DNA of 64,000 nt, taken from Boswellia sacra. Taxonomy: Eukaryota > Streptophyta > Magnoliopsida > Sapindales > Burseraceae. A program made the translations under genes and the position numbers. The DNA is taken from assembly GCA_013180625.2 (NCBI GenBank), contig SNVD02004841.1:150003-214002 (forward strand), written 5' to 3'. Below, piece by piece: positions 6,840 through 64,000 of the stretch. Under the pieces are notes generated by a model that worked only from the letters and a program-made list of their open reading frames with translations, was not told where the DNA came from and made no database searches. The first letter of the stretch is position 1, and the number at the start of each line of letters is the position of its first letter.

Positions 6840-7170
6840 TTACAGTATTAAAAGGGTTTCCCAACGTTTAGCCCCACGTTGTTATCGGCAGAGTTGTAAA
6901 AACCCAATCAACAATTACAGCGTCTTACAATAGCTATAGAGAAACGCTGCAAAAATACTCTATACAGTGATTTTTGAACGCTGTGAAGCTTCTTTTATAG
7001 TGTTTCATAAACATTGTAAACAGCTTTTTAACTGCTATGAATTTGTTTACAGGAATTCGGTGATGTTTTTCACAGCATGTTTTGAATGATGTAAAGGGTT
7101 GTTTAAAACGTTTTTTGAACACTGTGATTGTTTGTTTACAACACTTTAAAAATGTTGTAAACTTGATTTT
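6840..7170. repeat. Left subterminal repeat zone of the CACTA element
   Basis: Repeated short words built on (A)ACGCTGT(A/G)AA and its variants (GAAACGCTGC, TGAACGCTGTGAAG, AACATTGTAAACAG, AACACTGTGA) recur roughly every 30-40 bp. The matching zone next to the right end (12400-13070) has CACAGCG, AACGCTGTAAAAC and ACACGCTGTAAATC. Such zones bind transposase in the En/Spm superfamily; that function is inferred here. Confidence 0.7.
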
Positions 7171-7646
7171 TAGAAAAAAAAAATAAATTTAAATGAAAAT
7201 GCTTTTTATTCAGTTACAATATGTATAATACATGCTAGCTGTTCAATTATTAAGTTTCATTCAATACTCATCATCCACAATTGCAAATATTTCACAATAA
7301 GAAAAACAAAACTTTTGAAACATGCATCTTAGATGTAACAATAAACAACTCGCTTCAATATCAAAAGCATATCAAATATATCATCTCAATAATGTTTAAC
7401 AGCAAAATACCACTAAATCTTGTTTTGTTGTACAAGCCAGAGCAACTTGATTTATTAAAACATAGAATAATATTATACACAGTTTGTTGTACAAGCCAAA
7501 GCAACTTCAAGACTTGTTGCAATGTTGCACTAAAAATATAGAATTGTTTAGAAGACATCAGTCTACTATCAAAAGAACATATATACATCCGTAGTTTTAG
7601 ATATACTAATGCAAGCCATGGTAAGCAAGGAACGGTCAGAACTAAC

Positions 7647-8314
7647 CTTTTTCAACAAAAGTGGAATCAAAAACCACCTCTGCAAGCTGCTGCTTTGAGA
7701 AGACCTACATCAAATTAATGAAGTTTATTAAATTGGAACTGCAAATATAGGGCATATTTTTGTTACTGCACACTACACACACCTTAAAATACAATGGCCC
7801 ATGTAGTTAAAACAAATGGTGGAGAACTTTATTCAGTTGAGTTGAATTGCATAATCCAAAAGGCATTGTATAGTATGGGGAGTAAATGCAGATTAAAAGA
7901 TGCAGCATTAAATGGAAAAAAAAATTCATTCCTTCTAATAATATAAACTGAGAATTTAAAAATCCATAAAATATCAATATTTACCTGCTTAGCAAATGAA
8001 AAATTACATCAGCACTCTTCAATATTAAAGACTTGTATTATTATTGTCTCAAGATACATTAGTGCTTTCCATTTTATAGTGCCACCAATGAGAACATTGT
8101 GGTATTGAAACAACCAAAACCCAATAAAATTTTTGTGGCAAGGTTCCACAAATTCTCAACATTTGCTGTAAACTATTTAAGAGTACCATAAAAGATATTA
8201 TATGAGCTTTGAATTGCAAATCTGATATTCTTTTTTAGAATTAAACTCCATAACATATCGCAGAGAGAAGTTCTCGTGTCTTTATATCCCAAAAGCGCAA
8301 ATAGCTGTCCAAAC
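7647..8314 (-). pseudogene. WDR74-like WD40 gene fragment, two exons
   Basis: On the minus strand, 8314-8259 follows a TTTGTAG acceptor and encodes GLDSYLRFWDIKTRELLSA, a WD40 blade typical of plant WDR74/Nsa1-type ribosome-biogenesis proteins. A second exon, 7704-7647, lies between a GATGTAG acceptor and a GTTAG donor and encodes VFSKQQLAEVVFDSTFVEKG, the segment I expect to follow in that family. The donor after the first exon reads ATATGT where GTATGT would be expected, so splicing is probably broken. The fragment sits inside the CACTA element, directly downstream of, and in the same direction as, the bHLH exon. The family assignment is from memory of the motif. Confidence 0.65.
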
Positions 8315-8360
8315 CTACAAATAAATCAAGCTTTTTACTTAAACCAGAAAAAAGAATAAC

Positions 8361-8551
8361 CTTGGCTCCAATACAGTCGGCTCAGAATTCATGAATCTTG
8401 AGATTAATCTCTCTGATTCATAATTGCCCTTATTACCACCAGGACCTAAACCATCTGTGAAATCAGCAAGTAGATTGCTTGCAGCAGAGTGAAACGGCAA
8501 CAACCCATAACCGGGTTGCTCATGATAATTGTGACTAGTAGTTGAATCCAT
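8361..8551 (-). pseudogene. bHLH transcription factor first-exon fragment
   Basis: The exon starts at an ATG at 8551 and encodes MDSTTSHNYHEQPGYG followed by LLPFHSAASNLLADFTDG and ESERLISRFMNSE. The sequence GLL-x-(F/Y)-x-SA-x-S-x-LL with a later RLISRF is the N-terminal signature of the bHLH122/128/130-type family, whose usual wording is GLLRFRSAPSSLL. The exon ends at GAGCCAAG followed by a GT donor (8360). The basic helix-loop-helix domain itself is absent, so the fragment cannot bind DNA as a bHLH protein. It lies inside the CACTA element, upstream of the WDR74-like exons in the same orientation. A frame open to 8614 upstream probably reflects 5'-UTR sequence. Confidence 0.65.
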
Positions 8552-8786
8552 GAAAACACTCTCGCTCTTTTTTTTTTCCCTCTCTGTTTCGGCTTGTTGA
8601 GGAAAGAGAACCATTCGGTTAAGTTAAGGATTTGGTGCTTACAGGAACCTTAATACAGCTTTATTAGGCAAAAAAAATTCTGGGAATTTTGATGCATCAC
8701 TTTCTGGAGGAAATTTATCAGCTTGAATTCTGAGCAAATTAAAGATAAGATCACGAAGAGGAAGCAACACAAGAAAAGAGCTTTAA

Positions 8787-8890
8787 TAAGCTAATGTTTC
8801 CAAGCATATTAATTTAGAAGCTAATACAAGACATTTAGTAAGCTAATGTTTCCAAGCATATTAATTTAGAAGCTAATACAAGACAGATAC
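8787..8890. repeat. 52-bp tandem duplication
   Basis: Two adjacent direct copies, each beginning TAAGCTAATGTTTCCAAGCA (8787 and 8839), lie inside the CACTA element. They are nearly identical, so the duplication is fairly recent. Confidence 0.85.
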
Positions 8891-9778
8891 AAATCACACA
8901 AACAAAGAAACAAAACCAATCCAAAAATAAAAAAGTAAATAAAAAAGGTAACTAAAAATTTTTCCAGTGCTTCATGCTGACCAGAAAAACCACTTTCGTT
9001 TAATCAACTAATTGTGTAGTTTAAACAAATGAATCTTGAAAACAGATGACACAAATAAATGCTCTGTGCCATCGTCTTCTCACATTTTAGTTGTAACTAA
9101 ATGGAAAGATATTTTGTATTTCATGATAATTAACTAAATTATCAAGCCAAATTTCAAAATTAAACACGCAGGAGTTAGAAATATATTAACCAAATTCAAA
9201 GTAACAAGAACTGGATAATGAATAAAGTGGCAGAGATGGACAACGAGGGAGTGATAGAAATTCATAATTACTTGAAAATAACAATTGTATATAAGGCAGG
9301 AGATGCATTCATAGCATTAGCAATGCTTTAATCATTAGAACATGCCCAGAATGATGAGGATGTCGTGTCAGGCATCACTTGGAGTAATGTAATATATTTG
9401 AGCCTCAGAATTAGGAGAGTTCTATTGTTGTAATATTCAAGCTCTAAGTTTATTTAATGACTTGCCACATTAACTCTCTACCAGATGGCCGAGTGCAAGA
9501 ACCAATTTTAAGATACCCAAAAAAGCCTAAGTGCTTTTCTGTTATGAATTACTGGTGATCCTTGATATGCATCACTATGTTCCTGTCCCCCGCTTCAGTT
9601 CCAGGTGTGTGAGTTGACTCAAGATATCATGCATATAAAGACTATCGGTAGGTGAATCAATTTCTGTTTTTTGAATTGTAAATTGGCAGATCATTTTATA
9701 CATCCATAGCTCTGTGAATAGCTGAAAAGATAAAGGATGTCTAGTTAATCAAGTAAAAGGGCAAAAGCCAACTGGGTA

Positions 9779-10275
9779 CCCGCTTTCCATGAAATATTTA
9801 TTGATTCATGTTTAGAGCAGATGCCTAAAGGGAAAAACCTGGAACAAATTTCTCTAAGGCAGGCTGGAGAAATATCGTTGAATCATTTTACAAGAAGACC
9901 GGTTTGAGGTACAATGAAAAACAAATGAAGAATCATTGGGATAGCACTAAGAAGCAGTGGAAGGTCTGGTGTAAGCTAATTGAAGCTACGATGATGAAAT
10001 GGGATCCAGAAAGAAAAACATCTGGTACGAGTAACGAAAATTGGACCAACTATATTCAGGCATACCAGCTGGCTTCAAGATATTAGTTCTATGTATTTGA
10101 GATACTTGGGTTTTTATTTTTATTTTTGCAAGGGGTGGGGTGGAGTAGGGTAGGGTGGATGCAATTTATTCTTCGCACATTTTATATTACTAACAGCATA
10201 ATTCATGTCTCAGGCAAATCCAGAAGCTGCACAATTTCAGTTCAAGGAACTTCAGCAAGCAATTCAGTCCAACTA
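9779..10275 (+). pseudogene. Myb/SANT-like domain gene fragment
   Basis: 9904-10086 encodes a segment with LRYNEKQMKNHWDSTKKQWK then VWCKLIEATMMKWDPERKT, the K-x-x-QMKN-W-x-x-x-KK-W-x-x-W-x-KL core of the plant Myb/SANT-like domain. Upstream, 9790-9900 reads FIDSCLEQMPKGKN and, after a frame change, a GWRNIVE-like stretch, so the start of the domain is present but frameshifted. A further piece at 10213-10275 (ANPEAAQFQFKELQQAIQSN then stop) follows an intron-like gap ending in CAG. It lies within the CACTA element. Members of this domain family occur both in host genes and as accessory proteins of PIF/Harbinger transposons, so the donor is uncertain. Confidence 0.7.
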
Positions 10276-13088: not shown

Positions 13089-15640
13089 AAAGCCTAAATT
13101 ATTCTTCTAATTGAAAAGCGAGGCCTTCGTCTACCTGGTAACTAGCTCTCGTTAATTAGTTAGCTAGTGCCATGTTACTGTAGCTAGCTTTTGTTAATTA
13201 CCTGGCTAGTGCAATATTGTTGTCGTTGCACTAACAGTTCCAAAAGTCTAATAATAAGTGAAACAAATTAAAGAAAAGTTCAACCCATTAAAGACAAACT
13301 TGTAGTTAATTATTTAATGAATTACATTTGAGTAATGAATTAATCGACAGTTCTCTCTCATTGTTCAACTAAAACATACAGCGTGCACAAATGTTTAAGT
13401 TCTTGCCGACCCCATTATCGGAAAAGCAAGTTCACCTGTTCATCAACTGCCATGTGTTCTTGCTTTCTGCAAATATATATATATATACACACACACACAC
13501 ATGTATCACTCGATACAATTATTTATTATTGATTGCAATTGTGTGTTATATACTAATTGCTTTGTTAAATTTTCTATTCAGAGAGTGAATGATAAATCTA
13601 GTATAAAGAATCCTTTTCGAAGAAATTTAATTATCAACCTCTTCATAAGATAAATTTATTAATTATTAGTTGGTCGAGACCTTCAGAGAGATGCTTTATC
13701 ATCCTTCATGTGCTGCCACTTGTTGTCCAGTACTAATATGCATGTAAATACGTAATTAAAATACACAGTTCTTGCAAAATTATTCGTTGAAAGGAATTTA
13801 TGAATAAAAGGAACAATAAAGAAATTAATTAGAATTCAAAAATTCTGTCCTGGTTATATATATATAGCTGTTATTGTGTAGATATATGGGTTGTGTTATG
13901 TTTGAATGTATTATATATACTAGCTTCCTCTAGTTGATTAGTACATATTATTAGAGAATATGTACTCAAGTTAACTCCATATCTACGAGTGCAACTTTTA
14001 AAAAACTGACAAATTTAACACGGTATCAAAGTCGTCATGGTATACACACACATGTATCACTCGATACAATTATTTATTATTTATTGCAATTGTGTGTTAT
14101 ATACTAATTGCTTTGTTAAATTTTCTATTTAGAGAGTGAATGATAAATCTAGTATAAAGAATCCTTTTCGAAGAAATTTAATTATCAACCTCTTCATAAG
14201 ATAAATTTATTAATTATTAGTTGGTCGAGACCTTCAGAGAGATGCTTTATCATCCTTCATGTGCTGCCACTTGTTGTCCAGTACTAATATGCATGTAAAT
14301 ACGTAATTAAAATACACAGTTCTTGCAACATTATTCGTTGAAAGGAATTTATGAATAAAAGGAACAATAAAGAAATTAATTAGAATTCAAAAATTCTGTC
14401 CTGGTTATATATATATATAGCTGTTATTGTGTTGATATATGGGTTGTGTTATGTTTGAATGTATTATATATACTAGCTTACTCTAGTTGATCAGTACATA
14501 TTATTAGAGAATATGTACTCAAGTTAACTCCATATCTACGAGTGCAACTTTTAAAAAACTGACAAATTGAACACGGTATCAAAGTCGTCATGGTCAAACA
14601 GTTTTTTAAAAATATCATTTAACCCACTTGTAAGTTTCGTTGTGGTATACAAGTGTACAAACCCTTAAACGTAAAAGAAGCGTATTTTCACAAACTTCAT
14701 TTAGAAAATTAGTAAACTTCAACACATATATAATTTTTGCTTCATGTTTTTGTGCACTTATGAAGATGAAAGTTTAAAATGAACAAACCAAAAAATTAAC
14801 CATGCCATGTCAAAGATTCCTCTTTGAAATTCCAATCTGTTAAAATGTTGTTTAAAAAATGATTCAATCGCATCATAACTTGACATTTTTTTCTAGGATG
14901 ATCTTATTGAAAGACGTTAATTTTTACAACTAGAAATAATAATAAACATCATTGTTCTTAATTCATTAATTTCAGCCTTTTCTAATTATTATTTTGAGCA
15001 TTTAGTATTCGGTCTAGGAAAGCTAACATGACCAATAAACTGGGGCATATTATGTTACAATCGATGTACCGTTTATCTATTTTTATTTTTTTTGTAAATT
15101 TAATATAAAAATTATAAATCATCGTATAAATATAGTAAATGTAAAAAAGAAGGTATAAATAAATAATTTTTTATATTTATAACTTTTGTACGATGATTTA
15201 TAACCTTTACATTAATTTATAAAAAGTTAAAAATAGTTATATAATTATTTATTTACAATTTTTTTCATATTTAAACTTTTATAGAAGAATTTACAATTTT
15301 TACATTAAATTCGTAAAAAATTTGAAAACGGTTGCACGATACAATCGCTATTCCATAACCAAAGCCATAAAACAATTGAGTGCTATACTCCATTTGCAAT
15401 TCCATAGTCATAAATTAATAATCATTGTTAGCTACCATGTGGGTGAGAATTAATATATTACCTTGTTATATTCCAGATCACCGAATTTTTTATAGCACAA
15501 AACAATTGTTTGATATCTGGCACGGGTTCATCAAAGACAACTCCACAAAGGCATTTCAAGCTAAGTGACCAAATCACAGCTGACGTAACAAAATTGCCAT
15601 CTTTAATTATTATTACTATTATCATTATTATTATTCATCT
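13089..15640. repeat. Segmental duplication, copy 1
   Basis: This segment, from AAAGCCTAAATT next to the CACTA element to about 15640, is collinear with 34601-35975. Shared phrases in order include TGTCGTTGCACTA, CCGACCCCATTATC, TGCCATGTGTTCTTGCTTTC, TAAATCTAGT, GAATTCAAAAATTCTGTCCTG and GGCATTTCAA. No coding content was recognised. Copy 1 also has an internal 551-bp tandem duplication and extra AT-rich sequence at about 14600-15360. Confidence 0.85.
13490..14591. repeat. 551-bp tandem duplication
   Basis: The sequence containing ATGTATCACTCGATACAATT at 13501 recurs at 14052 and stays aligned to GTCGTCATGG (about 14039 and 14591). The copies differ at only a handful of sites. The paralogous segment at 34.9 kb has a single copy, so the duplication arose after the segmental duplication. 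Confidence 0.9.
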
Positions 15641-17942: not shown

Positions 17943-18168
17943 TCTTGTTTTAGCGTTCAAACATGCCATCTGCTTTTCATCAATTTCATTAAACTCACCA
18001 ACACTTTCATCGTCTATGTTTTCTGTCTTGAAGCAAATGCAATACTCTTCCCTTTCTTCTTTGATTTCTGGTTCATCTCATAAGTTTGTAAAGACCTGAT
18101 CAGTTCATTAATCCTCTCATCCAGATTTTTTGATTCCTTAGTAGTTGTGACTTTGGTCTAAAATTTAT

Positions 18169-18543
18169 GGGATAATTTTAATTTGCCCCCTGAGGTTAGA
18201 CCTAAAAAAAATTGAGGACCTCAATTTTCTGGAATCTAAGAATGCCCCCTGAGATTACTGTAGCGACGTTAGATTTTACGAAAAATGTATTGAATAATAA
18301 CTTAATGCTAATATTAGATTTAACAAAAAATATATTAAATAATAACTTAACGCTAATAAGCAGTAAAATAGACTATAATACTCTTTTCTAAATAGTTTCT
18401 AAAGCGTTAAGTTACTAATTAATACATTTTTCGTTAAATCTAACGGTGCTACAGTAACCTCAGGGGATAATTTTGAGTTTCAGAAAACTGAGGTCCTCAA
18501 TTTTCTTTTGGCCTAACCTCAGGGGGCAAATTAGAATTAACCC
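18169..18543. mobile_element. MULE-type MITE with perfect 9-bp TSD
   Basis: A 375-bp element with ends GGGATAATTTTAATTTGCCC and, read inward, GGGTTAATTCTAATTTGCCC. The inverted repeats extend through CCCTGAGGTTAGGCC and a GAGGACCTCA-type stretch. The 9-bp duplication AAAATTTAT (18160-18168 and 18544-18552) is exact, diagnostic of the Mutator superfamily. It interrupts the copia gag remnant. Its CCTGAGGTTAG wording resembles the ends of the 16455 element. Confidence 0.9.
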
Positions 18544-18756
18544 AAAATTTATCTGGTAAAGATCTAAGGTTCTTTCTAACATTTTTAGCATCCAAATATC
18601 TTTCACCAAACATAAAAGATGAGTTGGTTATATGACAAGGCTTAGCATAAAAGTCAACAATTGATTCAACCTTATGCATTGTTAAATTTTCAAATTAGGA
18701 AGTCAATGCAAGTAATTTAAATCTTTTAACAGATGTTGTACCTTTATGCCTTACCT

Positions 18757-20560: not shown

Positions 20561-21662
20561 AAATTAGGGACCTTAAGTAAAATTTAGACACATCTTAAAA
20601 AATTTTTATGTCAAATACACTTTCTTCAAAAAAATGACTAAAATGGCATTTGAAACTCAAACTTGAAAAGAAAGAAGATAAAAAAGAAAGAAACATCATA
20701 AAACACTCTTCCTACACTGTACGAGAGATTTTAAGGGATTTGGAATTGATTTTAAGGGATTTTGAATTTGGAAATTTGAGTTTGGGCTCGTATTTTGTAC
20801 TTATTCTGTGTTTTTGGGACTAAATAAAGTGTTATTTTGTTGATTTTTTGGTTTAATGTGTGTAAAAATCGTAGAAACCGACGCGTTTTGTCATGACGAA
20901 GATGATGACGAGTATCAATTTTCGCTCGACACTCGACATACAGTGTCGAGTTCTGTAGGATGCTTCAACCGATACTCGCCACCACAGCATTTTATATAAA
21001 ACCGACACTCGACATTCCCAATTACAACGTGTCGAGTCCTGTCGGATATATGACTCTGACAATCGACATCGTGTCGAGTCCTGTCGGATGCATATCTTTG
21101 ACACTCGATATCGTTGTAATTAGAAATATCGAGTGTCGATTTTATGTAAAATATCTTGGTGGCGAGTGTCGGTTGAAGCATCCGATAGAACTTGACACTG
21201 TATATCGAGTGTCGAGCGAAAATTGGCACTCATCATCGTCTTCGTCGCGACAAAACGCGTCGATTTTTATGATTTTCACACACACAAACCAAAAAATCAA
21301 TAAAATAACACTTTATTTAGCCCCAAAAACACATAATAAGTACAAAATACGAGCCCAAACTCAAATCTCCAAATTCAAAATTCCTAAAATCTACCCTAAA
21401 TTCACAAATACAAAATAAGTTTCTCGTTCCTCTTGCTGTGTTTCGAATTGCGTTTCTGATGGTGTTGAGGGTATTGGAAGCTGAATAATAATAGACGGTT
21501 ATAGAAATAGGACACGATTATAAAAATAGGAAGAGGTAAGTGAAGGAAAGAGGGAAATAAAGAGTTTAAGAATAAATTGAATTTCAATCATTTTTTGAAG
21601 AAATTATCTATAATATAAAAATTTATTAAGATGTGTCTAAATTTCACCTGAGCAACTAAAAA
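20561..21662. mobile_element. Hairpin-like non-autonomous MULE
   Basis: About 1.1 kb with inverted ends sharing AAATTTAGACACATCTTAA and an ATTTTTAT...TTTCTTCAAAAAA stretch. The inverted repeats continue inward: 20745-20960 (GAGTTTGGGCTCGTATTTTG, AAATAAAGTGTTATTTTGTT) mirrors 21200-21420, so most of the element could fold into one long hairpin. The core 20920-21230 is dense in CGACACTCGA, GTGTCGAGTCCTGTCGGAT and similar words. The same terminal and subterminal wording appears at 50290-51050, which makes this a deletion derivative of that Ulp1-carrying MULE. Open frames inside are by-products of the repeats. No convincing target duplication was seen. Confidence 0.8.
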
Positions 21663-51060: not shown

Positions 51061-51720
51061 TTTAGCTTTGTTTTTTTGCCTTTTTGCATCATATTTAACT
51101 ATAACGGCCTTGTATTTGCAGGTTGAAGCAAATGGCAAATGAATTTGGACTGTCCTTCACCATGAAGACACCGTTTGATGAGCACTACCATGCGGTGATC
51201 ACAAACTTGGCAAGTCTGGACTGTATTGAATGGATTCGCGCGAACTTGAGTGCGAGACAAAAAGACATGTTTCGTAATACATGTTTTGGGTTTATCCTAG
51301 ACATTCGGGAGCTGTCCTTTCCATCTCAGTTGGTGTATAATATGCTTCTGTGGGAGGTTAACACAATGGGGTACGATGAAGAGATGCAGTTCCTTATTGA
51401 AGGTAAAAATACGGTTTTGAACTACAATGTAGTTAAAAAATTTTATTTTTGAGCATCTGGTATTTGTAGTTATTTTTTTGTTACATTATTGGCATCTTAT
51501 ATTTTTTTTTCCTTCTTTGCAGGAAGAGTGATTCATTATTCTGCCCACGAGTTTGGTTTGGTTACCGGATTGAGATTTGCTTTCACGGTGCCACCAATAT
51601 TGACTGTGTTGAATCTGTGCCCTTTGTTGGATACGTACTTCGAAGGCGAGGATATAGAGCTCAGGGAATTCTATGGGAGACTTCAGAAATTGAATGTGTC
51701 TCGTATGCCAGACGAGGATG

Positions 51721-53126
51721 TGATAGGTGTCTATTTATGTATTACTTTTATATCAATTCGTCCATGTTTCTTTGCTATATCCCTTGGTATTTTTATGTTT
51801 TTGTGTGGTTTTGATGTTTGTAGGAGTTTTGGAACAACTTGCACAAAAATGGAGTAAAACCCTTCATTTTTACTTCTGCTAATCAACCATCTTCTCGGAT
51901 TTAATTGTATTGACATACAATGAACCCGATGACATATCATATACCGTTGAAAAGCTCTCGAAGTCTACTTTTTGGAGAAATTTACGGTTTATGAATCCAT
52001 TCAGTGTACCGAAAGTTGTAATCAAAACAGTGTGAGAAGTGTAGAAATGTAATTCCACACATCACTGTAGCATGTATAATACGGGACACTGTAGCACGTT
52101 ACTGTAGCAGAGTATTTAAACACATTTTAGGGTTTTATTTTCATAACTTGAAGAGGGGAGAACGTGGTGGAGGCTGCAGCTCTGGAATTCTTTCATCTCT
52201 TGGAGTTCTTGAAGGAGAAAGGAAGCTTGGAAAGAGGAAGAACTACAATCCAAAGAGAATTACATCAAATTTGCTAAGTTTTTCCCTTCCCTTTCATTTT
52301 CTGGAATGTCTCCATGTTGTATTGTATTTACCACGTTCTTAAACATGTGTAACTGAATCTGAATTGGTTGAGGGTGATTTCAAAGCCCCTGATATGGTTT
52401 TTGTAAGTTGATTGTGCAAGAAGTTGTTATCCAATTCTCTAATTGAAGTTGCTTGTATTTTCCCATGTCTAATGCTTATGATTGCTTGCTGGATTGTATT
52501 TGGGTGGCCAACTGAATATAATCTGGATATTGTCTATTGCTAGACTAGAAATCTTGATCCGTAATTGTCTTGAATTTCTAATCATTAGTAGCAAAATTGT
52601 GATCAGAGATTGCAATTGGAGAATATAACCTAAGTTAAATAATCCGAGCTTGTGTGTTTATTGCTTAGATCAACCTGTCTTTCTTTTCATAATGCATCCA
52701 TTGAATTAAATTTAGAGAGCTTGTTCTAGGTTGTTTAATGGATAGAGATTAAATAAAGAGCTTGTTTTGTTTAACAACAAAGTAAGGAAAGATTGGGATA
52801 ACAGAGCTTGTTGTTATCTACGGTTGGTAATTTCAATGCTGTAATTGGATGACAATCTACTAATTAATTCACAAATCCATATCTTGTGGTAGAGAAGGAT
52901 CCCTTAACCCGTTTCTCTCATTGATCTTTCATTCAAATTTAACTTCTGTTTTGTTATCTTAATTGCATTCTTATTTCATTTAGTAATCATTCAACAAAAC
53001 CCCCCTGTTTAGTTTATCGTTGCTAAAAATAATAAATTCAATTAGAATCAATCCTCGTGGGAACGATATCTATTTATCACTTTATTACTTGTGCGACTAG
53101 TATACTTGCTAGTTTCGAACGCATCA
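51721..53126 (+). repeat. 5' LTR of the gypsy element
   Basis: 1406 bp, TG...CA. It contains a small cluster of CACTGTAGCA-type repeats (52060-52110) followed by TATTTAAAC (52112), a possible TATA-like box of the LTR promoter. The same features are in the 3' LTR. Confidence 0.93.
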
Positions 53127-53132
53127 AGTTTT

Positions 53133-53150
53133 TGGCGCCGTTGCCGGGGA
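53133..53150 (+). other. Primer-binding site, tRNA-Asp type
   Basis: TGGCGCCGTTGCCGGGGA six bases after the 5' LTR is complementary to the 3' end of plant tRNA-Asp, the usual primer for Athila/Tat-type gypsy elements. Confidence 0.85.
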
Positions 53151-53238
53151 TTGATTTTCTAATCAATTTGTTATTTTGTTTTCATTGTTGATTCGTATTT
53201 TTTTGTTTTTCTTTTCTGATTGTTTGTGTTGAGGCGAC

Positions 53239-54069
53239 ATGGCAGTAAACTTCCAACAATTCAGTAGCCGACTTGACCCACAACTACATTGGGGAGTAAA
53301 TGAGGTAAGCACTCCGAACATTGAACAACAACTTTCTGAGCTAACCTCTCTTGTGGAAAACATGGCTGTAGGACATATGCAGAAATCTTATGTATATGGG
53401 GTATATTCTACCATGGAGCATCCAATGGACATGTCTCCAACTTTACAAGAAGAAGATATGGAACAAGCCAATTCCATGGGTGGATTTCCAGAACAATCAA
53501 GGCAATGGTATGATCCATTCTCTAATACTTACAATGCCGAATGGATAGATCATCCTAATTTTAGTTACTGGAATCATCAACCAATCGCCTCAAATGCCAT
53601 ACCAAATTGGCCACAAAGTTTCAATCAACCTAGAGTGCAGCAACCATTTCAAATGCAACCACCACCAATACCACATCCAGCACTGCAACCAGCTTCGCAA
53701 AACTCAGGTATGTCTCTCGAAGATATTGTTAATGCACTTGCTATTAATACAATGCAATTCCAGCAGGAAACTGGGGCAAGTATCCAAAACCTGGCAAATC
53801 CAATGGGACAATTGGCTACTAGCATGAGCAAATTCGAGGGCCAAGACTCAGAAAAATTATCTTCCCAAACGGTGATCAATCCAGGAGAGACTGCTAGTGC
53901 GATAACTTCGCGAGGTGGAGAGCAATTAGATATCTTGCCAAGGAAATCACAAACTGATGAAGGAGATGACACCACTTCCACCATGAACAAAACATTGACT
54001 TCTCAGGTAAATCCTATAACCCCCATTCCTTCATATGTTTCTCCTCCACTTTTCCTAGTAGATTTGTAA
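53239..54069 (+). CDS. gag C-terminal region of the gypsy element
   Basis: 276-residue ORF from the first ATG after the primer site (MAVNFQQFSSRL). It has the low-complexity composition of the end of Athila-type gag: Gln/Pro-rich (about residues 115-160: MQPPPIPHPALQPASQNSG) then the coiled segment MSLEDIVNALAINTMQFQQE and MGQLATSMSKFE typical of the region before the protease. The retrotransposon-gag capsid domain is absent, so the protein is a remnant or a shortened gag. The frame ends at 54069 and the protease follows directly at 54072 in the same frame beyond a stop, suggesting one former polyprotein. Expression is unknown. Confidence 0.75.
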   Translation: MAVNFQQFSSRLDPQLHWGVNEVSTPNIEQQLSELTSLVENMAVGHMQKSYVYGVYSTMEHPMDMSPTLQEEDMEQANSMGGFPEQSRQWYDPFSNTYNAEWIDHPNFSYWNHQPIASNAIPNWPQSFNQPRVQQPFQMQPPPIPHPALQPASQNSGMSLEDIVNALAINTMQFQQETGASIQNLANPMGQLATSMSKFEGQDSEKLSSQTVINPGETASAITSRGGEQLDILPRKSQTDEGDDTTSTMNKTLTSQVNPITPIPSYVSPPLFLVDL

Positions 54070-54071
54070 AA

Positions 54072-55260
54072 TTGAAGAAGGAGGAACAAGAACAGAAAAT
54101 CCTGGAAACTTTTCGCAAAATCGAGGTGAGTATACCACTTTTGGATGCTATCGAACAAGTACCTCGTTATACAAAATGTTTCAAGGAGTTATGCACCAGC
54201 AAGAGAAAATTAAAAGGGAATGAGAAAGTAAGTGTGGGGGAAAATGTTTCAGCTGTACTACAAAGAAAAATTCCTCCGAAATGCAATAATCCAGGTACGG
54301 TCACCATTCCATGCACCATTGGTAAAACCAAGTTTGAAAGAGCTATATTAGATTTAGAAGCATCTATTAATGTCATGCCATATTCTATTTATGCTTCTTT
54401 AAATCTTGGACCTTTTACAGAAACTGGTATTACCATTCAACTTGCTAATCATTTTAATGCATATCCAAAAAAGAGTTGTGGAAGATGTGCTTGTGCAGGT
54501 GAATCAATTGGTTTTCCCAGCAAACTTCTATGTCCTTGAAATAGAGGATGAGACATCTCCTAGTCCAACTCCGATTCTTTTAGGGAGACCATTCTCGAAA
54601 ACTGTTAGAACTAAGATTGATGTTCATGATAGCACTCTCATCATAGAGTTTGATGGCAAGGTGATATGTTTCAATATTTTTGAGGCAATGAGGTACTCTA
54701 GTGACTTACATTCTGTTTTTGCAGTTGATGTCATTGATTCTTTGGAACAACAACTTTTTGAGTTAACTCGCAAAGATGGATTGGAAGTAGCCATTAGTGA
54801 GCACATAGGGGCAGAAAATTCTAGAGAACCGAGAAGGCTGATACAAGTGTCTAAAAAAGTGGAGAAAGCTGTGGCAAGCTTGGATGAGACTATAGCTATC
54901 ACCACAAACAGGTATGATGTTTCGTACATTGAATTGCCTTTATCTAATGAGAAACTTCTTCCGTCTATGATGAAAGCACCTGCCTTGGAGCTTAAGCCTC
55001 TTCCAGATCATTTGAAGCATGTATTCCTTGGTGAGAAAGATACATTGCCAGTCATAATAGAAATGGGCCTTGCACGAATACAAGAAGAGAAACTCGTCCG
55101 AATACTTACGGGCCACAAAACAGCTATTGGGTGGACGATTGCTAACATCCAAGGCCCAGCCATATGCATGCACCAATTCTTGTTGGAAAAAGGATCCAAG
55201 CCCACTAGAGAAGCACAGCGGAGATTGGACCTTCCCATTATGGAGCCAACGTCGGGCTGA
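54072..55260 (+). pseudogene. Retroviral-type aspartic protease and pre-RT linker, frameshifted
   Basis: 54072-54539 covers IPLLDAIEQVPRYTKCFKEL and the protease active-site region, which reads DLEASINVMPYS where Athila/Tat elements usually have DLGAS; the glycine of the catalytic loop is replaced. The frame shifts at about 54460-54480 and continues to 55260 with ILLGRPFSKTVRTKIDVH (the protease flap and end) and the linker before RT: LPDHLKHVFLG, EEKLVRILTGHKTAIGWTIA, CMHQFLLEKGSKPTREAQRR. It stops right after this with MEPTSG, where RT should begin. The G-to-E change and frameshift argue against activity. Confidence 0.85.
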
Positions 55261-55576
55261 GGACGTTAAACCAAGCGCTTATTGGGAGGCAACCCAATGT
55301 TTTTGAAAAATAAATAAAAAATAAAAAAAATAAAATAAGGTAATAATGATCAATTTTTGTGTCTCGAGGAGATTCCTTTCGTTGACCATCAAATTGACCA
55401 GGTTTTATCTCTCTTTGCCATCTGTCTTATTTGTTTTTATATTTTTTTACTTGTTTTTTTTTCACTTTTGTTTGCTATCGTGTTGTTATCTCTTTTATGT
55501 GTCTTTAGTTTCGTTTCTGCTCTTTTCTTTTCCTTTGTTTTGTTTAATTTGATTATTCCGTACTTCGAATTCATTT
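55261..55576 (+). other. Deletion junction and 3' region after the protease
   Basis: Immediately after the stop is ACGTTAAACCAAGCGCTTAT then TGGGAGGCAACCCAATG, which I know as the segment that normally follows integrase in Athila-type elements. RT, RNase H and integrase are therefore missing between 55255 and 55262. The same junction is present in the copy at 63687-63700 on the other strand. A T-rich stretch (55430-55560) follows. Confidence 0.65.
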
Positions 55577-55960
55577 GTGCAACAGCTTGAGGAACGGAAG
55601 CTGAAGCCATTGCCCGAAGGTTTGAAACGTGCACATCTTGGAGGAACAGACTCAATCGCATTATCGGTAATATCTCTCCTTTTCTTCTCTTCAATGGATG
55701 CGGATATCTTTTTCTCGAACCTTCGTAAATATTTTCCTTCACTTCCTCAAAATGCTGTGTTTAAAATTTATAAAGTACGGATAACTAGACTTTGGGCATT
55801 GATGCTCCTAAATGTGCCTGCTGATATCCGATGGCTTATCGAAGCCAAGGGGAGATTGTCCGGTGAGCCAGACATTAATCTCGCAAAATACATGCCTGGT
55901 CTAGGAAAGAGCTACTACGCCAAGAGGCGAAGAGCGAAAAGGTTACAAAGTATGTTATAA
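55577..55960 (+). CDS. Unrecognised 127-residue ORF, shared by both gypsy copies
   Basis: It begins MQQLEERKLKPLPEGLKRAH, which resembles a second pre-RT type linker (KPLP-x-x-LK), then DADIFFSNLRKYFPSLPQNA, RLWALMLLNVPADIRWLIEA and a basic end YAKRRRAKR. I do not recognise a family. Part of it (to residue about 92) is also found, with differences that close the frame, on the minus strand at 63114-63390, so it belongs to the retrotransposon family rather than to the insertion site. Whether it is translated is unknown. Confidence 0.4.
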   Translation: MQQLEERKLKPLPEGLKRAHLGGTDSIALSVISLLFFSSMDADIFFSNLRKYFPSLPQNAVFKIYKVRITRLWALMLLNVPADIRWLIEAKGRLSGEPDINLAKYMPGLGKSYYAKRRRAKRLQSML

Positions 55961-56477
55961 ATGTGCTAGATGAAATTGTAACCTGACTTGTCGTTCATTA
56001 GGTTTTGTGTCCAGAAATAGAGAAGATAAACTATCATTTATTAAGAAATGGTCTGAGTAATGAGTCGCTGGATAATGTTTTGTTAACTCTCGAGTCACAT
56101 TCTTGTGGACTTGTTCAGCGTGAATTGCTTATCTATGGACACAATTTCGTGATGAATTGCAGTGTTATAGTCTAGGGAATCTGACTAAAAACGACCCTGT
56201 TTGCCAGTTTATAAGAAAACTGGATGGGAGCAAATCCCCGACTCATAGAAGGCGTTTCAGCCGTTACTGGACGTAAAACCAGAGGAAGATGTGAGCCACA
56301 ATCACAACTAATTGTATATTTGAATGTGTGTTGTTGTTGTCGAATTTTATTTCTTTCTTGTTTCGTTTGATCTGATTATCAATGTTGTTTTGGTGTTGTT
56401 GTTGTTTGTTTATTTTGTTTGTTTTAATTTCAAGTTTTCTTTTTGACAAACCATATGACTACCCCATGACATAAGCA

Positions 56478-56675
56478 CACGTGGGAAACAAGTGTGGAGG
56501 TTTGTCAACCTCCACCGAAAGTATATCTTTACTTTTCATGCTTCACGTGGGAGACAAGTGTGGCAGTTTTGTCAAACCCCGCCGAAAGTATATCTCCATT
56601 TTTCATGTTTCACGTGGGAGATAAGTGTGTAGATTTTGTCAAACCCCGCCGAAAGCATATCTCATTTTTTCAAAT
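56478..56675 (+). repeat. Three 66-bp repeats with G-boxes upstream of the LOG ORF
   Basis: Units start at 56478, 56544 and 56611, each with CACGTGGGA, then ACAAGTGTGG or a close variant, TTTTGTCAA and CCGAAAG(T/C)ATATCT. CACGTG is the plant G-box core; CACGTGG also fits ABA-response elements. They lie 380-250 bp upstream of the LOG start. Regulatory function is inferred from motif and position only. A 64-codon frame through them (56494-56688) is probably incidental. Confidence 0.7.
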
Positions 56676-56857
56676 CTTGGGGCGATAAATCTGCATCGAG
56701 CAACTCCCACCGAAATTATGTCCCCATGTGTCAAATTTAAGAGTTATATATCCATGCTGCATATTTTGAAATGTCATTTCATAACCTGTCTTGCACTTGA
56801 ATCGCATAATACCTAACGTGCATCATTGTCTTACACAAGTTTAAAGCACTTGTAGAA

Positions 56858-57493
56858 ATGGAGAAAACACCAATTCGGCGATTCCAAAATATATGCGTAT
56901 TTTGTGGATCGCAATTTGGAAAAGATGGAGAGTTAACAACAGCAGCTCTTGATCTTGGTAGGACATTAGCTGCGAGGGGTATTCATTTGATTTATGGAGG
57001 GGTTAGTCTTGGGTTAATGGGATGTGTGTCGACAGCTGCATCCCTAGGAGGGAGCAAAGTTCTCGGCATTATCCCTAAACCATTAGCTGTACGAGATATC
57101 GTAGGCAACACCATGGGGGAAGAGTTACAGGTTTCTAGTATGCATGAGCGTATGGCACATATGGTCATTAAATCTGATGCATTTATAGCTTTGCCCGGTG
57201 GTTATGGTACATTAGAGGAGATATTTCAAATCACCTCTTGGGCACAGCTAAACATCCATTGGAAACCCATTGGTTTGTTAAATGTCAATAATTTTTTTGA
57301 TTTGTTTGTGTCTTTTCGGATCAAGCCAGTAGAAAAAAAATCATCTACAGTCAGCGAGGGCAAAATTCCTGGTTACAGCTTCAACTTGCAGGGGAGATTA
57401 AGCGGACAAATTACAAGCATTCATCTTTCGCCTAATCCAACAATAGCCCGGATAGATTGGTTTGGGAAGGCCAATAGAGGCGTTATAAACTGA
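56858..57493 (+). CDS. LOG-like: Intronless LOG (cytokinin phosphoribohydrolase) captured in a retrotransposon
   Basis: 211 codons. Residues 1-145 match LONELY GUY proteins, which release active cytokinin bases from riboside 5'-monophosphates. Landmarks: CVFCGS (13-18), YGGVSLGLMG (46-55), VLGIIPKPL (68-76), the catalytic Arg in MHERMAHM (R98), DAFIALPGGYGTLEE (107-121, E121 catalytic) and WAQLNIH...GLLNV. Family introns are absent, indicating capture from spliced RNA. YGGV replaces the usual YGGG. After GLLNV the frame departs from the family: the expected SAR-x-x-x-V-x-AST segment is readable in another frame near 57360-57400 (SARAKFLVTASTC), and PNPTIARIDW near the end is again in frame. 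The C-terminal quarter is thus altered by indels. LOG enzymes work as cytosolic dimers; whether this copy folds is unknown. Confidence 0.88.
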   Translation: MEKTPIRRFQNICVFCGSQFGKDGELTTAALDLGRTLAARGIHLIYGGVSLGLMGCVSTAASLGGSKVLGIIPKPLAVRDIVGNTMGEELQVSSMHERMAHMVIKSDAFIALPGGYGTLEEIFQITSWAQLNIHWKPIGLLNVNNFFDLFVSFRIKPVEKKSSTVSEGKIPGYSFNLQGRLSGQITSIHLSPNPTIARIDWFGKANRGVIN

Positions 57494-59424
57494 TTTAAGC
57501 TCACTTGTAATCTCTATCTGTGGTGTCATTTTCGTTTGGCTTTCCCTTTATGGTTATGAGTGAGTTTTTTTTCAGGTTATTCTTCGTTCCAGGTAATATT
57601 TTTCTAATAGCAGTTTTAGAGGGTGGCTTTAAAAATTCAATTCATCTTGAAACGCATTCGGCTCTCTTTAATCCATAATGGCTTAATAAGGAGGCTAACT
57701 TCTAAACTTTTTAGACCCATTCTAACTTAATTGTTTTTGTTTGCTGACTTGTTGGACTTGTTATTTTATGAGTAAGTTTAGTTTTATGTAATTTAGAGTT
57801 GTTATGTGTTTTTGTCTTTATCAGTTTCGACTCAAAAAAAAGAAAAACATTGTGGAAAAACCTGAGAATGGCAGAATATGGGGTTTCCTTAACTCTTGAA
57901 ACGCATTCTCTCTAAATAAATCTGTAGTTTGTTTATTTCATGTTGTTTGAAGTGTCTTGTTTCTTGTTTTGTTTTTTTCATAATAAAGGTATATAGGCTG
58001 GAAACCTTAAGTCTGCGGGCTACTGGTCCTAAGGATTGTTGAAATATACAATCTTGACTCAGGTGTAACAATGCCACGTACCTCTTTTCTTGCATTTGTG
58101 GGTCGATGATAAGCTAATGATTGAATTAAGAATAACTCTTGGAAAATGAAAATGAATGCATGGATCTGTGTGCTTGAAATGTTATGGTTTTCGCTTTGCT
58201 TTTGATTCCTTGCGCAACATTGAGACTGAGCTATATCACTGAGTTATTTGTTCACTTAGAGCAAGTTTATGCAATTTAAATGTTTCTTCAGATTTCAATG
58301 AATTCTAGAACTTGTTTGATGATCACTCGAGGCGAAATCCTAGATTGTGCAACATAGGGGAAATGATTTAGGCCATCTTTGGACCGTTTGAGCCTTAATA
58401 GCCAACCTTGACTGAAATTGATCCCTAGACCCTTTGAGCCTCTGTAAGCCTTTTTCCTTGTTAACTCACTAAAAGATTTCCTAACCTCAAATAAATTTAT
58501 TCCAAACAGTTATATCCCTATCATGAGCATGTAGATCGTTCACAATTAAATTTTGAGCTATGTTCTGGTTTTTGGAAGTTAGAGGAGGTTGGGATGTGTC
58601 ATGAGCAATACAAGTGAGTTCTATTGTGTTTAAAAAAAAAAGAAAAAAAGAAAAGAAAAAACCAATCTGTACTTATCGTCCACGTACTTACACATTGAGG
58701 ACAATGTGTTGTTTAAGTGTGGGGGAGGGGAAGTGATATAAAAAAGAAAAAAAAGAGAACAAAAGAAGAAGAATAAGAAATCTATACCCTTAAGTGTTCT
58801 TAAAAAGAATGAAACAACAAAGTGTGGGGGTGTAGTTTTCTTGTGTTTTCTGCAAAAAAAAAAAAAAGATTGAGTGTTCTAAATAAGTTTGGGGGAGTAA
58901 CCTGGTGAATTGAAATAAAGTTGTGTTATAAGGTTGAGCTCTACATAGTCTTGAATGATTTATGTGTTTGTGGGTGATTTGAGCCAAATTATTATCCTTT
59001 ATCATACCTTCACCCAACCCAAACGTTACAAGCTTAATAAAGCCCTACTTGATCCTTGGTGTTGTGCATGTGTACATTAGTGGAGAGTGACTTGAAAAGC
59101 AGGCCTATGGAGTTCATTTATCTACACATCTTCAATATTAAATATGATTCTTTTTTATGCATAAACTCATCCGGGTTACAAGTGATTAGGTGAGAATGGC
59201 TCTACACACACACACTTGAAGAATTGAAGTGAAGTGAAACTAATCTTTCGGATAAAATTCTTGATCAAGTGCATTATTTTGAAGTTTTCCTTGGGTTATA
59301 ATTAAGTCCAATCTTTGAGGCCTATTTGTAAGTTGAAGCATTTGTGTGTTTTAATTTTTCTTTGATTCTGTTTCGGTTTAGTTTGTTTCGTATCATTTTA
59401 GTTGCTCGAGGACTAGCAAAGTCT
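57494..59424 (+). other. Gypsy 3' non-coding region
   Basis: No ORF recognised. Typical for long untranslated regions of Athila-like elements: a TTGAGGACAATGTGTTGTTT segment (58696) followed by repeated AAGTGTGGGGG-type words (58715, 58820, 58888) and purine-rich runs. Confidence 0.6.
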
Positions 59425-59438
59425 AAGTGGGGGGAATT
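59425..59438 (+). other. Polypurine tract of the gypsy element
   Basis: AAGTGGGGGGAATT directly before the 3' LTR. Confidence 0.8.
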
Positions 59439-60848
59439 TGATAGGTGTCTATTTATGTATTACTTTTATATCAATTCGTCCATGTTTCTTTGCTATATTC
59501 CTTGGTATTTTTATGTTTTTGTGTGGTTTTGATGTTTGTAGGAGTTTTGGAGCAACTTGCACAAAAATGGAGTAAACCCTTCATTTTCACCTCTGCTAAT
59601 CAACCATCTTCTCGGATTTAATTGTATTGATATACAATGAACCCGATGACATATTATATACCGTTGGAAAGCTCTCGAAGTCTATTTTCTGGAGAAATTT
59701 ACGGTTTATAAATCCATTCAGTGTACCAAAATTTGTAATCAAAACAGTGTGAGATGTATAGAAATATAATTCCACAAGTCACTGTAGCATGTATAATACG
59801 GGGCACTGTAGCAAGTCACTGTAGCAGAGTATTTAAACTCATTTTAGGGTTTAATTTTCATAACTTGAAGAGGGGAGAACGTGGTGGAGGCTGCAGCTCT
59901 GGAATTCTTTCATCTCTGGGAGTTCTTGAAGGAGAAAGGAAGCTTGGAAAGAGGAAGAACTACAATCCAAAGAGAATTACATCAAATTTGCTAAGTTTTT
60001 CCCTTCCCTTTCATTTTCTGAAATTTCTCCATGTTGTATTGTATTTACCACGTTCTTAAACATGTGTAACTGAATCTGAAGTGGTTGAGGGTGATTTCAA
60101 AGCCCCTGATATGGTTTTTGTAAGTTGATTGTGCAAGAAGTTGTTATCCAATTCTCTAATTGAAGTTGCTTGTATTTTCCCATGTCTAATGCTTATGAAT
60201 GCTTGCTGGATTGTATTTCGGGTGGCCAACTGAATATAATCTGGTTGTTGTCTATTGCTAGACTAGAAATCTTGATCCGTAATTGTCTTGAATTTCTAAT
60301 CCTTAGTAGCAAAATTGTGATCAGAGATTGCAATTGGAGAATACAACCTAAGTTAAATAATCCGAGCTTGTGTGTTTATTGCTTAGATCAACCTATCTTT
60401 CTTATCGTAATGCATCCATTGAATTAAATTTAGAGAGCTTGTTCTAGGTTGTTTAATGGATAGAGATTAAATAAAGAGCTTGTTTTGTTTAACAACAAAG
60501 TAAGGAAAGATTGGGATAACAGAGCTTGTTGTTATTTACGGTTGATAATTTCAATGGTGTAATTGGATGACAATTCTACAATTAATTCGCAAATCCATAT
60601 CTTGTGGTAGAGAAGGATCCCTTAACCAGATTTCTCTTATTGATCTTTTATTCAAATTAACTTCTGTTTTGTTATTCTTAATTTGCATTCTTATTTCATT
60701 TAGTTAATCATTCAACAAAACCCCCCTGTTTAGTTTATCGTTGCTGTAAAATAATAAATTCAATTAGAATCAATCCTCGTGGGAACGATATCTACTTATC
60801 ACTTTATTACTTGTGCGACTAGTATACTTGCTAGTTTCGAACGCATCA
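59439..60848 (+). repeat. 3' LTR of the gypsy element
   Basis: 1410 bp, collinear with the 5' LTR over its full length with scattered substitutions and short indels. Confidence 0.93.
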
Positions 60849-63000
60849 GAATGTTATGAAGCTGGCCTTGTACTACGTGCTGGAGCATTTTTTTATGGTA
60901 CGAGATCGACGCCGACTTGTCTCCCGTGTGTGGTTGAATTTTGTCAACACACTGGATAATTTTAACAATTATCCATGGGGTTCGGTGTCTTTTGGTAAAA
61001 CACTTAAAGGAATGAAAAACGCTTTGGACAACAGGTTAAAAAAATATAAGAAGCGAGCCCAAGCGAAGACGAAACAGGTAGAGAGATATAACTTAGAAAA
61101 GTGCCCCTACGCTATTCAGGTACGTACTGCAAAATAAGTATGTTGACGTGTTTATTATTTGCTTTGGCATACAAATTTAAATACATAGTGTCACTAACTA
61201 ATCCTTATGTTATTCAGGTTTGGTTGTGCGAGACCGTGCCGTATATTGGCGTGACATATGGGCGAGTGGGCAAGGACTTAGAGGGGAGGATACCGCGCTT
61301 GTTAAAGTGGGAGACAAAGAAGACCCCGTCGAGGACATCGTCAAACGTGATGTCCTGCTGGTTATGAGGCAGGTATGTAAGGTTCCCCTGTCTTATGAAC
61401 TTTTCTGATTTATAAGGTCACAGCGAATCGCTATTTAATTTGATGGATTATTTGTTGACACAGGCTCGTCCACTAGTCGTTTTGGAGCCATCTGAGGCAG
61501 AGCAGAGGACACATTGGTATACTAAGCTCGCTGAAGTAGTTGGCATCCGGAGAGGTGCACATGTAGCCTGGGCGACATCTGTGGATGCTCCATTTTTTGC
61601 CCGATGAGAGGATTGAGCCACTTCCCTCAGAGGATCCATCAACTCCATCTCTTACTGGTCAGAGTCCACCTCATGCTGGTCAGAGTTCCCCTATTAGACC
61701 TAATGTGGGGCCAACCAGAGACACATCTAGTCCTTCAGGTGATGTCCGTACGCAATCTCCGTCGCCTTCTTCCCCCGTTTGTCCTACACGTCAAGCATAC
61801 GAGAGTCACGGTCATGAGGATCCATCCAGAACTCATGCCGCTGGACATAGTCCCATCGATAGGCCTGACGTGGGGGCAGACATGGACACAGTCAGTACCC
61901 CCATCAGTCCTACGCCGGAGATGTTTGACAGCTATGGACCTGCAGGTGATTCAATTCCTCCGTCGGGTCGTGCGACCACCTACCATTACATTTCCCCTTC
62001 TATACACGATGTCTCTCTAAGCCCGAAGGTATGTAATGAGAATTTACATTCGTATTCTTATCCGTTTACATTTGCTGCTCTGTTGGTTTATGAAAGTGAT
62101 CGTTAATAATGACATACAGGCGCAGCCGGTCCATGATGAGTTCCAGAGTACAGTTCTGCATGAGCTTGTATTGTTACGGGCAGAGAACAAGCAAATGTAG
62201 GAGGAGATAGTTCTTTTGCGTAAGGTTGTTGTGCTATTGGGTGGCCATTTCGGATATGCTGACATGGAACGTTGCAAAAGTTACAAATCAGATTTTGTGA
62301 TTTCCACGCTTAACCTGACGTTGAGGTTTGCTTTAATACAGGATTCGGATGGAGGTTCGGGCGATGACGGTGAAGGCCAGCAGCTAACTAAACCGGAACC
62401 CGTGGACACGAGTGTTCGTGCCACCGATGCTCCTCCCACGGGCTTCGTTTCGCGCTGAGGTCGTCGGCTACTTCTGGGGAAGCATAAGCAGAGCCCCTTT
62501 GTTAGTCCGCTGGGTAGGAAGAGGGCGAGGGTTGAGCCACATGAGAAAGTCCCAGACGATCAGCATGTACAGCCAGAGGCCCCGGTTGTTTAGCCAGTAG
62601 AGAGACCAGATCAGCAGCCCCCTGAGGATACGACAGTGGTCTCGTCTTGTGGACTCGGGATCCACTATTTGACCCACATGCCCCCCTAGCAACTACTGAT
62701 GTTGAGGTCTTCGATGCATGGCTGGGGGACGTAAAGGGTGATATTGAGTTGGGTGTTTGCATCACTGATCGTGTGTTCTTCAAGACGTTACTGAGGCCGT
62801 GAGATTGGCTTGCATCTGAGGTAGTTTGAGTCCTTCTCATCTCCTCCAATATTGCAATATACATTTCAAATTATTATTGATAACTATTACTGTATTCAGC
62901 ACATGGATAGCTACTTATGAATGCTACGCTGCAGAGCTCGCACTATGGCCACACCTGGTGTCCAGAGGTCTGCTTTCCTGCACACCACATTCTGGGTACG

Positions 63001-63114
63001 TATTTCATAAACATATGAATTTGTAGTTAATTTCTAATTCCTTCAATGCGCTAACCGAACTCATGAAATTGTATTTCATAAACACATGAATTTGTAGTTA
63101 ATTTCTAATTCCTT
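63001..63114. repeat. Tandem duplication at the breakpoint of the second gypsy copy
   Basis: TATTTCATAAACATATGAAT plus the next 23 bases (63001-63043) recur at 63072-63114, just where the inverted gypsy fragment starts. The period is 71 bp. The sequence belongs to an intron of the Ulp1-type gene. Confidence 0.85.
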
Positions 63115-64000
63115 GGCTTCGATAAGCCATCGGATATCAGCAGGCACATTTAGGAGCATCAATGCCCAAAGTCTAGTCATCCGTACTTTATAAATTTTAA
63201 ACACAGCATTTTGAGGAAGTGAAGGGAAATATTTACGAAGGTTCGATAGAAAGATATCAGCATCCATCGAAGAGAAGAAAAGGAGAGATATTACCGATAA
63301 TGCGATTGAGTTTGTTCTTCTCCCAGATATGCACGTTTCAAACCTTCGAACAATGGCTTCAACTCCCGTTTGAATGTTTCCTCAAGCTGTTACACAACTG
63401 AACTCGAAGCACGGAATAATCAAATTAAACACAAGAAAAAAAAAGAAAATAGAGACACATAAAAGAAATAAAAACACAAGAGCAAATGAAAGTCAAAAAC
63501 AAACAACAAAGCAAATGAGACAGATGGCAAAGAGAGATAAAACCTGATCAATTTGATGGCCTACAAAAGGAATCTCCTTGAGACACAAAAATCGATCATT
63601 ATTACCTCATTTTATTTTCTTTTCTTCTTTTTTTTATTTTTCAAAAACATTGGGTTGCCTCCCAATAAGCGCTTGGTTTAACGTCCTCAGCCCGACGTTG
63701 GTTCCATCATGGCAGGGTCCAATCTCCGCTGTGCTTCTCTAGTGGGCTTGGATCCTTTTTCCAACAAGAATTGGTGCATGCATATGACTGGGCCTTGGAT
63801 GTTAGCAATCGTCCACCCAATAGCTGTTTTGTGGTCTGTAAGTATTCGGACGAGTTTCTCTTCTTGTATTCGTGCAAGGCCCATAATTGGCAAAGGATCA
63901 TCCTCACTCAAGAATCCATGCCTCAAATGATCTGGAAGAAGCTTAAGCTCTAAGGCAGCGGCTGTCATCACAGAAGAAGAATTTTCTCATTAGATAAAGG
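63114..64000 (-). mobile_element. Second gypsy copy, inverted and truncated
   Basis: Minus-strand sequence collinear with 54940-55850 of the element at 51721. It includes the protease-end linker (63971-63687), the same RT-to-integrase deletion junction (GAGGACGTTAAACC followed by AAGCGCTTATTGGG) and the segment for DADIFLSNLRKYFPSLPQNA. It breaks off at GAAGCCAAGG, so the LOG region and 3' LTR are missing; the other side continues past the window end. Shared deletion means both copies descend from the same non-autonomous lineage. Confidence 0.9.
63687..63971 (-). pseudogene. Pre-RT linker fragment of the second gypsy copy
   Basis: 94-codon frame with LPDHLRHGFLSEDDPLPIMG, EEKLVRILTDHKTAIGWTIA and CMHQFLLEKGSKPTREAQRR ending MEPTSG, the counterpart of 54970-55260. 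No catalytic domain. Confidence 0.85.

Follow-up and report, generated by a model that had tools for sequence, protein, structure and literature searches.

A processed LONELY GUY-type gene in a gypsy-type LTR retrotransposon family of Boswellia sacra

The YgdH/LOG domain has been reported in LTR-retrotransposon consensus sequences of Citrus sinensis and C. clementina, and in those of Populus trichocarpa only when the n5 filter is not applied; all extra domains reported in that study, which cites Steinbauerova et al. 2011, sit in gypsy-type elements (PMC9289625). The same source describes a 2-ODD domain in orchid gypsy elements, a comparable case in that a host-type enzyme serves as a gypsy accessory gene, but one that involves another enzyme and two Phalaenopsis species only.

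The locus described here, from Boswellia sacra, shares with the Citrus and Populus elements a LOG-type extra domain in a plant Ty3/gypsy element, and Populus proteins fall within the clade that we identified. An initial sequence-only reading of this DNA had presented the capture of such a gene as unusual. It is not so unusual as to be unreported, as the kind is already known. The relevant passages of PMC9289625 report presence, whereas selection, pocket substitutions, a basic and EAR-like tail and amplification of pol-deleted forms come from our analysis of the Boswellia family. Within the open-licence literature, outside which most subscription papers lie, we found no further report of a LOG-type domain in LTR elements, no published selection pattern, pocket changes or EAR-like tail for a retrotransposon LOG, and no single LOG clade spanning four plant orders with pocket and tail changes. 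The family-level facts thus go beyond one captured gene, and they make the description "cytokinin-activating" doubtful.

The origin of the element's accessory ORF is identifiable as a host enzyme gene. With canonical plant LOG (AtLOG3, structure 2a33) it shares the fold, the PGGxGTxxE motif and the catalytic Arg and Glu. Unlike AtLOG3, it has a replaced pocket Lys and Glu and an added basic, EAR-like tail, and it is intronless and mobile. We consider it likely that a spliced host LOG was captured by a gypsy element and became a selected accessory gene, that the family amplified, and that the copy studied here decayed. In this account a gypsy retrotransposon, probably Athila-like, would have taken up the spliced transcript downstream of pol and upstream of its 3' LTR, and the insert turned into an accessory gene of the family. 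Pol-bearing and pol-deleted forms would then have amplified to hundreds of LOG-bearing copies, with protein-level selection acting over rounds of transposition and single copies decaying neutrally afterwards. The element described below is one such decayed, pol-less copy.

The window element and its LOG-type reading frame

The window, i.e., the whole stretch analysed, comprises 64 kb of a 638.6-Mb assembly of 7431 contigs. A single LTR element spans positions 51721-60848. Its features, and a second copy of the same family, are as follows.

51716..51720, no strand: left copy of the target-site duplication (TSD), GGATG; by eye from the sequence
51721..53126, + strand: 5' LTR, TG...CA, 1406 bp; self-comparison with the 3' LTR
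53133..53150, + strand: stretch resembling a primer binding site (PBS); by eye from the sequence
53239..54069, + strand: gag-region ORF, 276 aa; ORF list and colinear stretch in sister elements
54072..55260, + strand: protease-region remnant, two overlapping ORFs (54072-54539 and 54406-55260); stops at the pol deletion
55244..55258, + strand: pol-deletion junction (approximate), with RT, RNase H and integrase missing; sister-element comparison
55577..55960, + strand: small ORF, 127 aa, with basic end KRRRAKRLQ; ORF list
56858..57493, + strand: LOG-homologous ORF, 211 aa; ORF list, profile and structure-sequence matches
59425..59436, + strand: polypurine tract; by eye from the sequence
59439..60848, + strand: 3' LTR, TG...CA ends; self-comparison with the 5' LTR
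60849..60853, no strand: right copy of the TSD, GAATG; by eye from the sequence
63111..64000, - strand: second copy of this family, truncated; 88% identity to 54937-55850

The LTRs, PBS, polypurine tract and target duplication noted from the letters alone are thus all present, although the two TSD copies agree in four of five letters, with one mismatch. The PBS resembles the 3' end of a plant tRNA-Asp. The LTR pair is 96.2% identical (K2P 0.037). With substitution rates of 1.3e-8 and 7e-9, this divergence corresponds to some 1.4 to 2.7 million years.

Joining the two flanks of the insertion site restores one uninterrupted reading frame. The joined peptide matches DUF1985 with E 2.1e-6 (28.2 bits, under the Pfam cut-off of 35.1), compared with E 0.048 for the left-flank ORF alone. 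Because the joined flanks read through and the match improves on joining, we conclude that both LTRs belong to one insertion, and we reject an origin from two different insertions. The flanks (51489-51715 and 60854-60990) read as a DUF1985-type coding unit interrupted by the element; this unit is possibly part of a transposon.

Neither the gag-region ORF nor the two protease-region ORFs gave a significant match in a Pfam scan (for the former there was no match at all), and we take their identities from motifs. A tblastn search for pol in the window element found none, and the RT-RH-INT ORF of a sister element (L014) starts at a boundary matching the end of the window protease remnant. The small ORF, also without a significant Pfam match, is possibly another captured or element-specific piece, and the second family copy spans part of its DNA. 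That copy is contiguous over the pol-deletion junction, and the match stops before the LOG region. Elsewhere in the window are a tandem direct duplication (13493-14041 and 14044-14594, ~551 bp, 98.4% identical) and self-complementary foldback stretches at 20748-21391 (86%) and 18161-18550 (79%).

The LOG-type ORF matches PF03641 (E 1.4e-29, 103.4 bits against a cut-off of 27), PF18306 (E 2.4e-12) and TIGR00730 (E 8.2e-43, 146.2 bits against a cut-off of 96.35), and its residues 7-160 match the Arabidopsis LOG3 structure 2a33 (E 1e-50). A chance match is therefore excluded, and we reject the reading of this stretch as a chance ORF. Together with the paired LTRs and the gypsy pol order of L014, the profile matches bear out the view that a gypsy-type LTR element carries LOG. 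R98 and PGGYGTLEE are intact, as had been noticed. The first ~152 residues are colinear with LOG and most of the remainder is frame-broken: measured against an intact copy's frame, the C-terminus has three frame-shifting indels and two stops, in agreement with the disturbance described earlier. Pieces of it were recovered in another frame by tblastn. A bacterial origin is not favoured, as the best solved structure is Arabidopsis LOG3; the trees described below include one bacterial row only.

Processed state, copy number and pol-bearing sisters

Host LOG exons were sought in the same genome using a 40-aa Arabidopsis LOG3 query, for which the best 150 of 7696 first-look candidates were scored. 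In the first 13 rows (76-89% identity) the alignment breaks off between query residues 32 and 37, in ten cases at 32-33; the remaining 137 cover residues 1-40 at 65-68%, like element copies. At one of the 13, a 501-base fragment encodes ...CFIALPG followed by a GT-AG intron, then 23 residues, then GTAAGG, and later an AG before ITGETVGEV. The intron falls inside PGGYGTLEE, between PG and GYGTLEE. The element ORF is uninterrupted at all three places where the host fragment breaks. Because it reads across the intron within this motif, the element LOG is a processed copy, its intronless state being judged against this 501-base fragment of one host gene; no introns are retained at the junctions seen. 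A 93-aa canonical query returned rows at 59-62% identity only, apparently missing the host exons since intronless copies outrank them. In peanut, LOG genes mostly have 7 exons and 6 introns (PMC13257298).

Searching the genome with the LOG ORF, we scored the best 150 of 13,792 first-look candidates. All 150 match at E<=2.4e-98, and 128 lack internal stops. Pooled with the 93-aa search, there are at least 274 distinct LOG-type places on 266 contigs. The LOG-bearing element has thus been amplified, as had been considered, and LOG is present in many other copies. A search with the LTR gave 95-100% identity for the 40 scored (the best of 4549 first-look candidates).

Genomic context is known for the fetched regions only. 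In 20/20 of these, LOG lies within sequence colinear with the interior of the window element (the upstream part of L028 is not colinear), and a full LTR follows LOG downstream in 15, eight of which also have a partial upstream LTR. These arrangements bear on the idea that the copies are an expanded host LOG gene family, into or beside whose members LTR elements inserted by chance. In public annotations clade members are indeed entered as ordinary genes, Populus "LOGL10" among them, but the colinear interiors, the LTRs and the intronless state, set against introns in the host gene fragment, make this extremely unlikely. Conversely, some annotated "LOG" genes of Populus, Reevesia, Pterospermum and others may belong to elements and not to the host's own cytokinin genes.

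Fourteen of the 20 regions are contiguous over the pol-deletion junction of the window element, and four (L012, L014, L023 and L025) have pol sequence there. LOG thus accompanies both the pol-bearing and the pol-deleted form. The earlier description of the element as non-autonomous holds for the window copy, which lacks pol, but not for the whole family. The pol ORF of L014 (695 aa) encodes RVT_1, RT_RNaseH, H2C2 and rve, giving the order RT-RH-INT as in Ty3/gypsy; the LOG frame of this sister opens with ATA, not ATG. A scan within the pol ORF identified one RNase H region, hit by two overlapping Pfam models. Athila elements belong to the OTA group and lack the extra RNase H typical of Tat (PMC6317226). 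Two further regions contain other material. L011 has a 1.76-kb insert at the pol-deletion point (1563-3326) with a repeated QGLKEVALV-like stretch, which is not pol. In L015, an ORF with a hAT dimerisation domain (7076-9901, E 9.9e-31) precedes the element-like interior and may belong to a nested hAT element.

Relatives in other plants and selection on the LOG ORF

From three protein searches (best 120 each of 5325, 7508 and 3488) we assembled 145 element-type proteins and, as the canonical set, the 120 nearest to AtLOG3. The canonical comparison consists of these 120 and an AtLOG8 stretch, and other host LOG subfamilies could share some of the features described below. The best 120 of 3488 are headed by full-length relatives, at 56-74% identity to an intact copy, from other plants and plant-containing metagenomes. 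A Pterospermum kingtungense protein represents 327 members in one cluster at 90% identity. A viral-contig search turned up a single LOG-like locus, a distant one matching query residues 105-169 at 39%.

We constructed two trees from 66 and 64 chosen rows, the second without the tail columns. In the first, the element copies and metagenome, Populus, Reevesia, Diplodiscus and Xanthoceras proteins form one clade of 49 rows (support 100/97); in the second, the clade has 51 rows (99/95) and also includes Pterospermum, Melia and Rehmannia. Canonical LOGs, AtLOG8 and the one from Cryptomeria among them, fall outside it, with long-branch attraction possible given fast evolution and a distant outgroup. 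Four orders are covered: Malpighiales (Populus), Malvales (Reevesia), Sapindales (Xanthoceras) and Lamiales (Rehmannia). Copy number and the Citrus and Populus elements of PMC9289625 suggest that the members in other plants are element-borne. One clade member, P0005, is 47-48% identical to seven canonical LOGs. Its predicted fold matches AtLOG3 2a33, the TM score being 0.94 (by target) or 0.75 (by query); in the tail pLDDT drops below 50, and the model adds little to sequence homology.

Pairwise comparison of 20 copies taken in order of protein score (190 pairs) gives mean dN 0.028 and dS 0.130, a ratio of 0.22 that is itself biased by the ranking; for pairs with dS under 0.05 the ratio is 0.45. 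This set drops the premature L003, L006, L008, L009 and the window copy, as well as L004, L005 and L007, duplicates of L010-L012. Because of the ranking bias, variants were split into those found in a single copy and those shared by at least two copies. They were grouped by sharing, not by tree mapping, and for the neutral ratio we took a kappa of 3.7, derived from the window LTR pair. Singletons comprise 46 N to 16 S changes in ungapped codons (omega-like ratio 1.13) and shared variants 24 N to 45 S (0.21; Fisher 9e-6). With gapped codons included, the counts are 50 N to 19 S and 24 N to 45 S. Read in the two wrong frames, shared variants score 1.95 and 3.12.

As a control, copies were picked by LTR similarity alone, taking a single flank of every LTR hit except that of the window itself (39 hits). 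LOG sequence is present in 15 of the 39 flanks, and 14 were used (the partial L050 was dropped; L044 has a large gap). The other 24 have no LOG match and may represent 5' LTRs, solo LTRs or LOG-less elements. Here singletons comprise 106 N to 40 S (1.05) and shared variants 21 N to 39 S (0.21; Fisher 7e-7). Wrong frames, all computed with the frame-0 neutral ratio, give shared values of 1.99 and 4.37; the second has p 0.007 in the opposite direction, as would be expected with third positions read as others. By codon position (1, 2, 3), shared variants number 13, 7 and 40 and singletons 47, 46 and 53.

These data bear on whether LOG is passive cargo, a one-off transduction without a role that the element merely carries. 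The window copy is broken, as are 10 of the 14 LTR-chosen copies (four are intact), which speaks for such cargo. Against this stand an omega-like ratio of 0.21 for shared variants in two samples, one of them chosen regardless of LOG, with no deficit in wrong frames, and the full-length relatives in other plants and metagenomes. We regard passive carriage as very unlikely. The sequence-only reading had named neutral evolution among the results that would refute it, and the variants shared between copies are not neutral. Selection on LOG across transposition cycles, followed by neutral decay of single copies, predicts the pattern seen. The family offers sequence evidence of a captured hormone-pathway enzyme selected while mobile and in many copies, within a clade that extends over four orders.

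Substrate pocket, C-terminal tail and possible function

In CgLOG, Arg99 and Glu122 function in catalysis, and Met96, His97, Lys100, Glu125 and Trp129 form the prenyl site, with Lys100 also placed in the adenine site (PMC4979012). All seven are kept in 115/115 readable canonical LOG1/LOG3-type proteins (120 examined). Among 128 readable proteins of the 145 in the element-type set, Arg99 is kept in 119, Glu122 in 124 and Trp129 in 126, whereas Lys100 is I, L or M in 113 and Glu125 is H or Q in 106. Both of the latter are changed in 114/128 and both kept in 13/128. In the 25 copies from this genome, window copy included, PGGxGTxxE and the catalytic Arg and Glu are present in every one, and Lys100 and Glu125 are both replaced in every one. 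The suggestion that amplification would spread cytokinin-activating ORFs is therefore undercut.

The element LOG could nevertheless be an ordinary cytokinin-activating enzyme, local free cytokinin promoting host cell division and so favouring the element. The conserved catalytic residues and Trp129, the predicted AtLOG3-like fold and purifying selection agree with this. In MmLOG, other positions of the prenyl pocket deviate from those of plant LOGs, yet the protein is still discussed as a cytokinin producer (PMC4979012), so a changed pocket is no proof of lost activity. The replacement of Lys100 and Glu125 speaks against it, as do alanine changes of AMP-site residues, which, S19A excepted and without itemisation in the text, almost abolish activity (PMC4979012). 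The window ORF, with its broken C-terminus, also falls below the cut-off of the NCBI cytokinin-LOG equivalog NF058542 (96.9 against 300 bits). We see this as a possible reading, and one that we doubt.

The C-terminal tail, which we take to resemble that of SUPERMAN, sets the element-type proteins further apart. LxLxL, one form of the EAR repressor motif (PMC6479872), occurs within the last 15 residues in 104/125 full-length element-type proteins (200-245 aa), against 0/109 canonical ones, and a basic cluster precedes it in 99/125. In the tree without tail columns, the canonical LOGs are followed by a basal group of seven rows (94/72) with Lys and Glu kept and a basic tail, then by P0113, with Lys and Glu kept and the tail KRRRLDLTLHL, and then by 43 rows (99/93), with the pocket changed in all 41 that are readable.

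Given the replaced pocket residues and the basic, EAR-like tail, plain cytokinin activation by the element LOG appears doubtful. The product may still be a nucleotide phosphoribohydrolase with altered base recognition. The tail suggests that it could act in the nucleus or with TOPLESS-type corepressors, and it may serve the element's own cycle, e.g., by altering growth state or expression where the element moves. A more specific proposal, which we put forward tentatively and think rather unlikely as a whole, is a neofunctionalised LOG that, in the order of this tree, gained a basic tail, then the EAR tail and then a new base pocket; it would be a nuclear, corepressor-recruiting protein that hydrolyses or senses nucleotides and either protects the element from silencing or directs when it is expressed. 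Changes in the pocket and tail make a retrotransposon's "need" for a LOG gene testable.

The EAR-like tail varies among the copies in this genome. LxLxL was found within the last 15 residues in 13 of the 20 fetched copies, and it is absent from the window copy, whose C-terminus is broken. Five of the 20 (L016 and L023-L026) end in a common ...VNWI instead, so the EAR-like tail is not needed for every copy's spread; these apparently represent a subgroup that spread without it.
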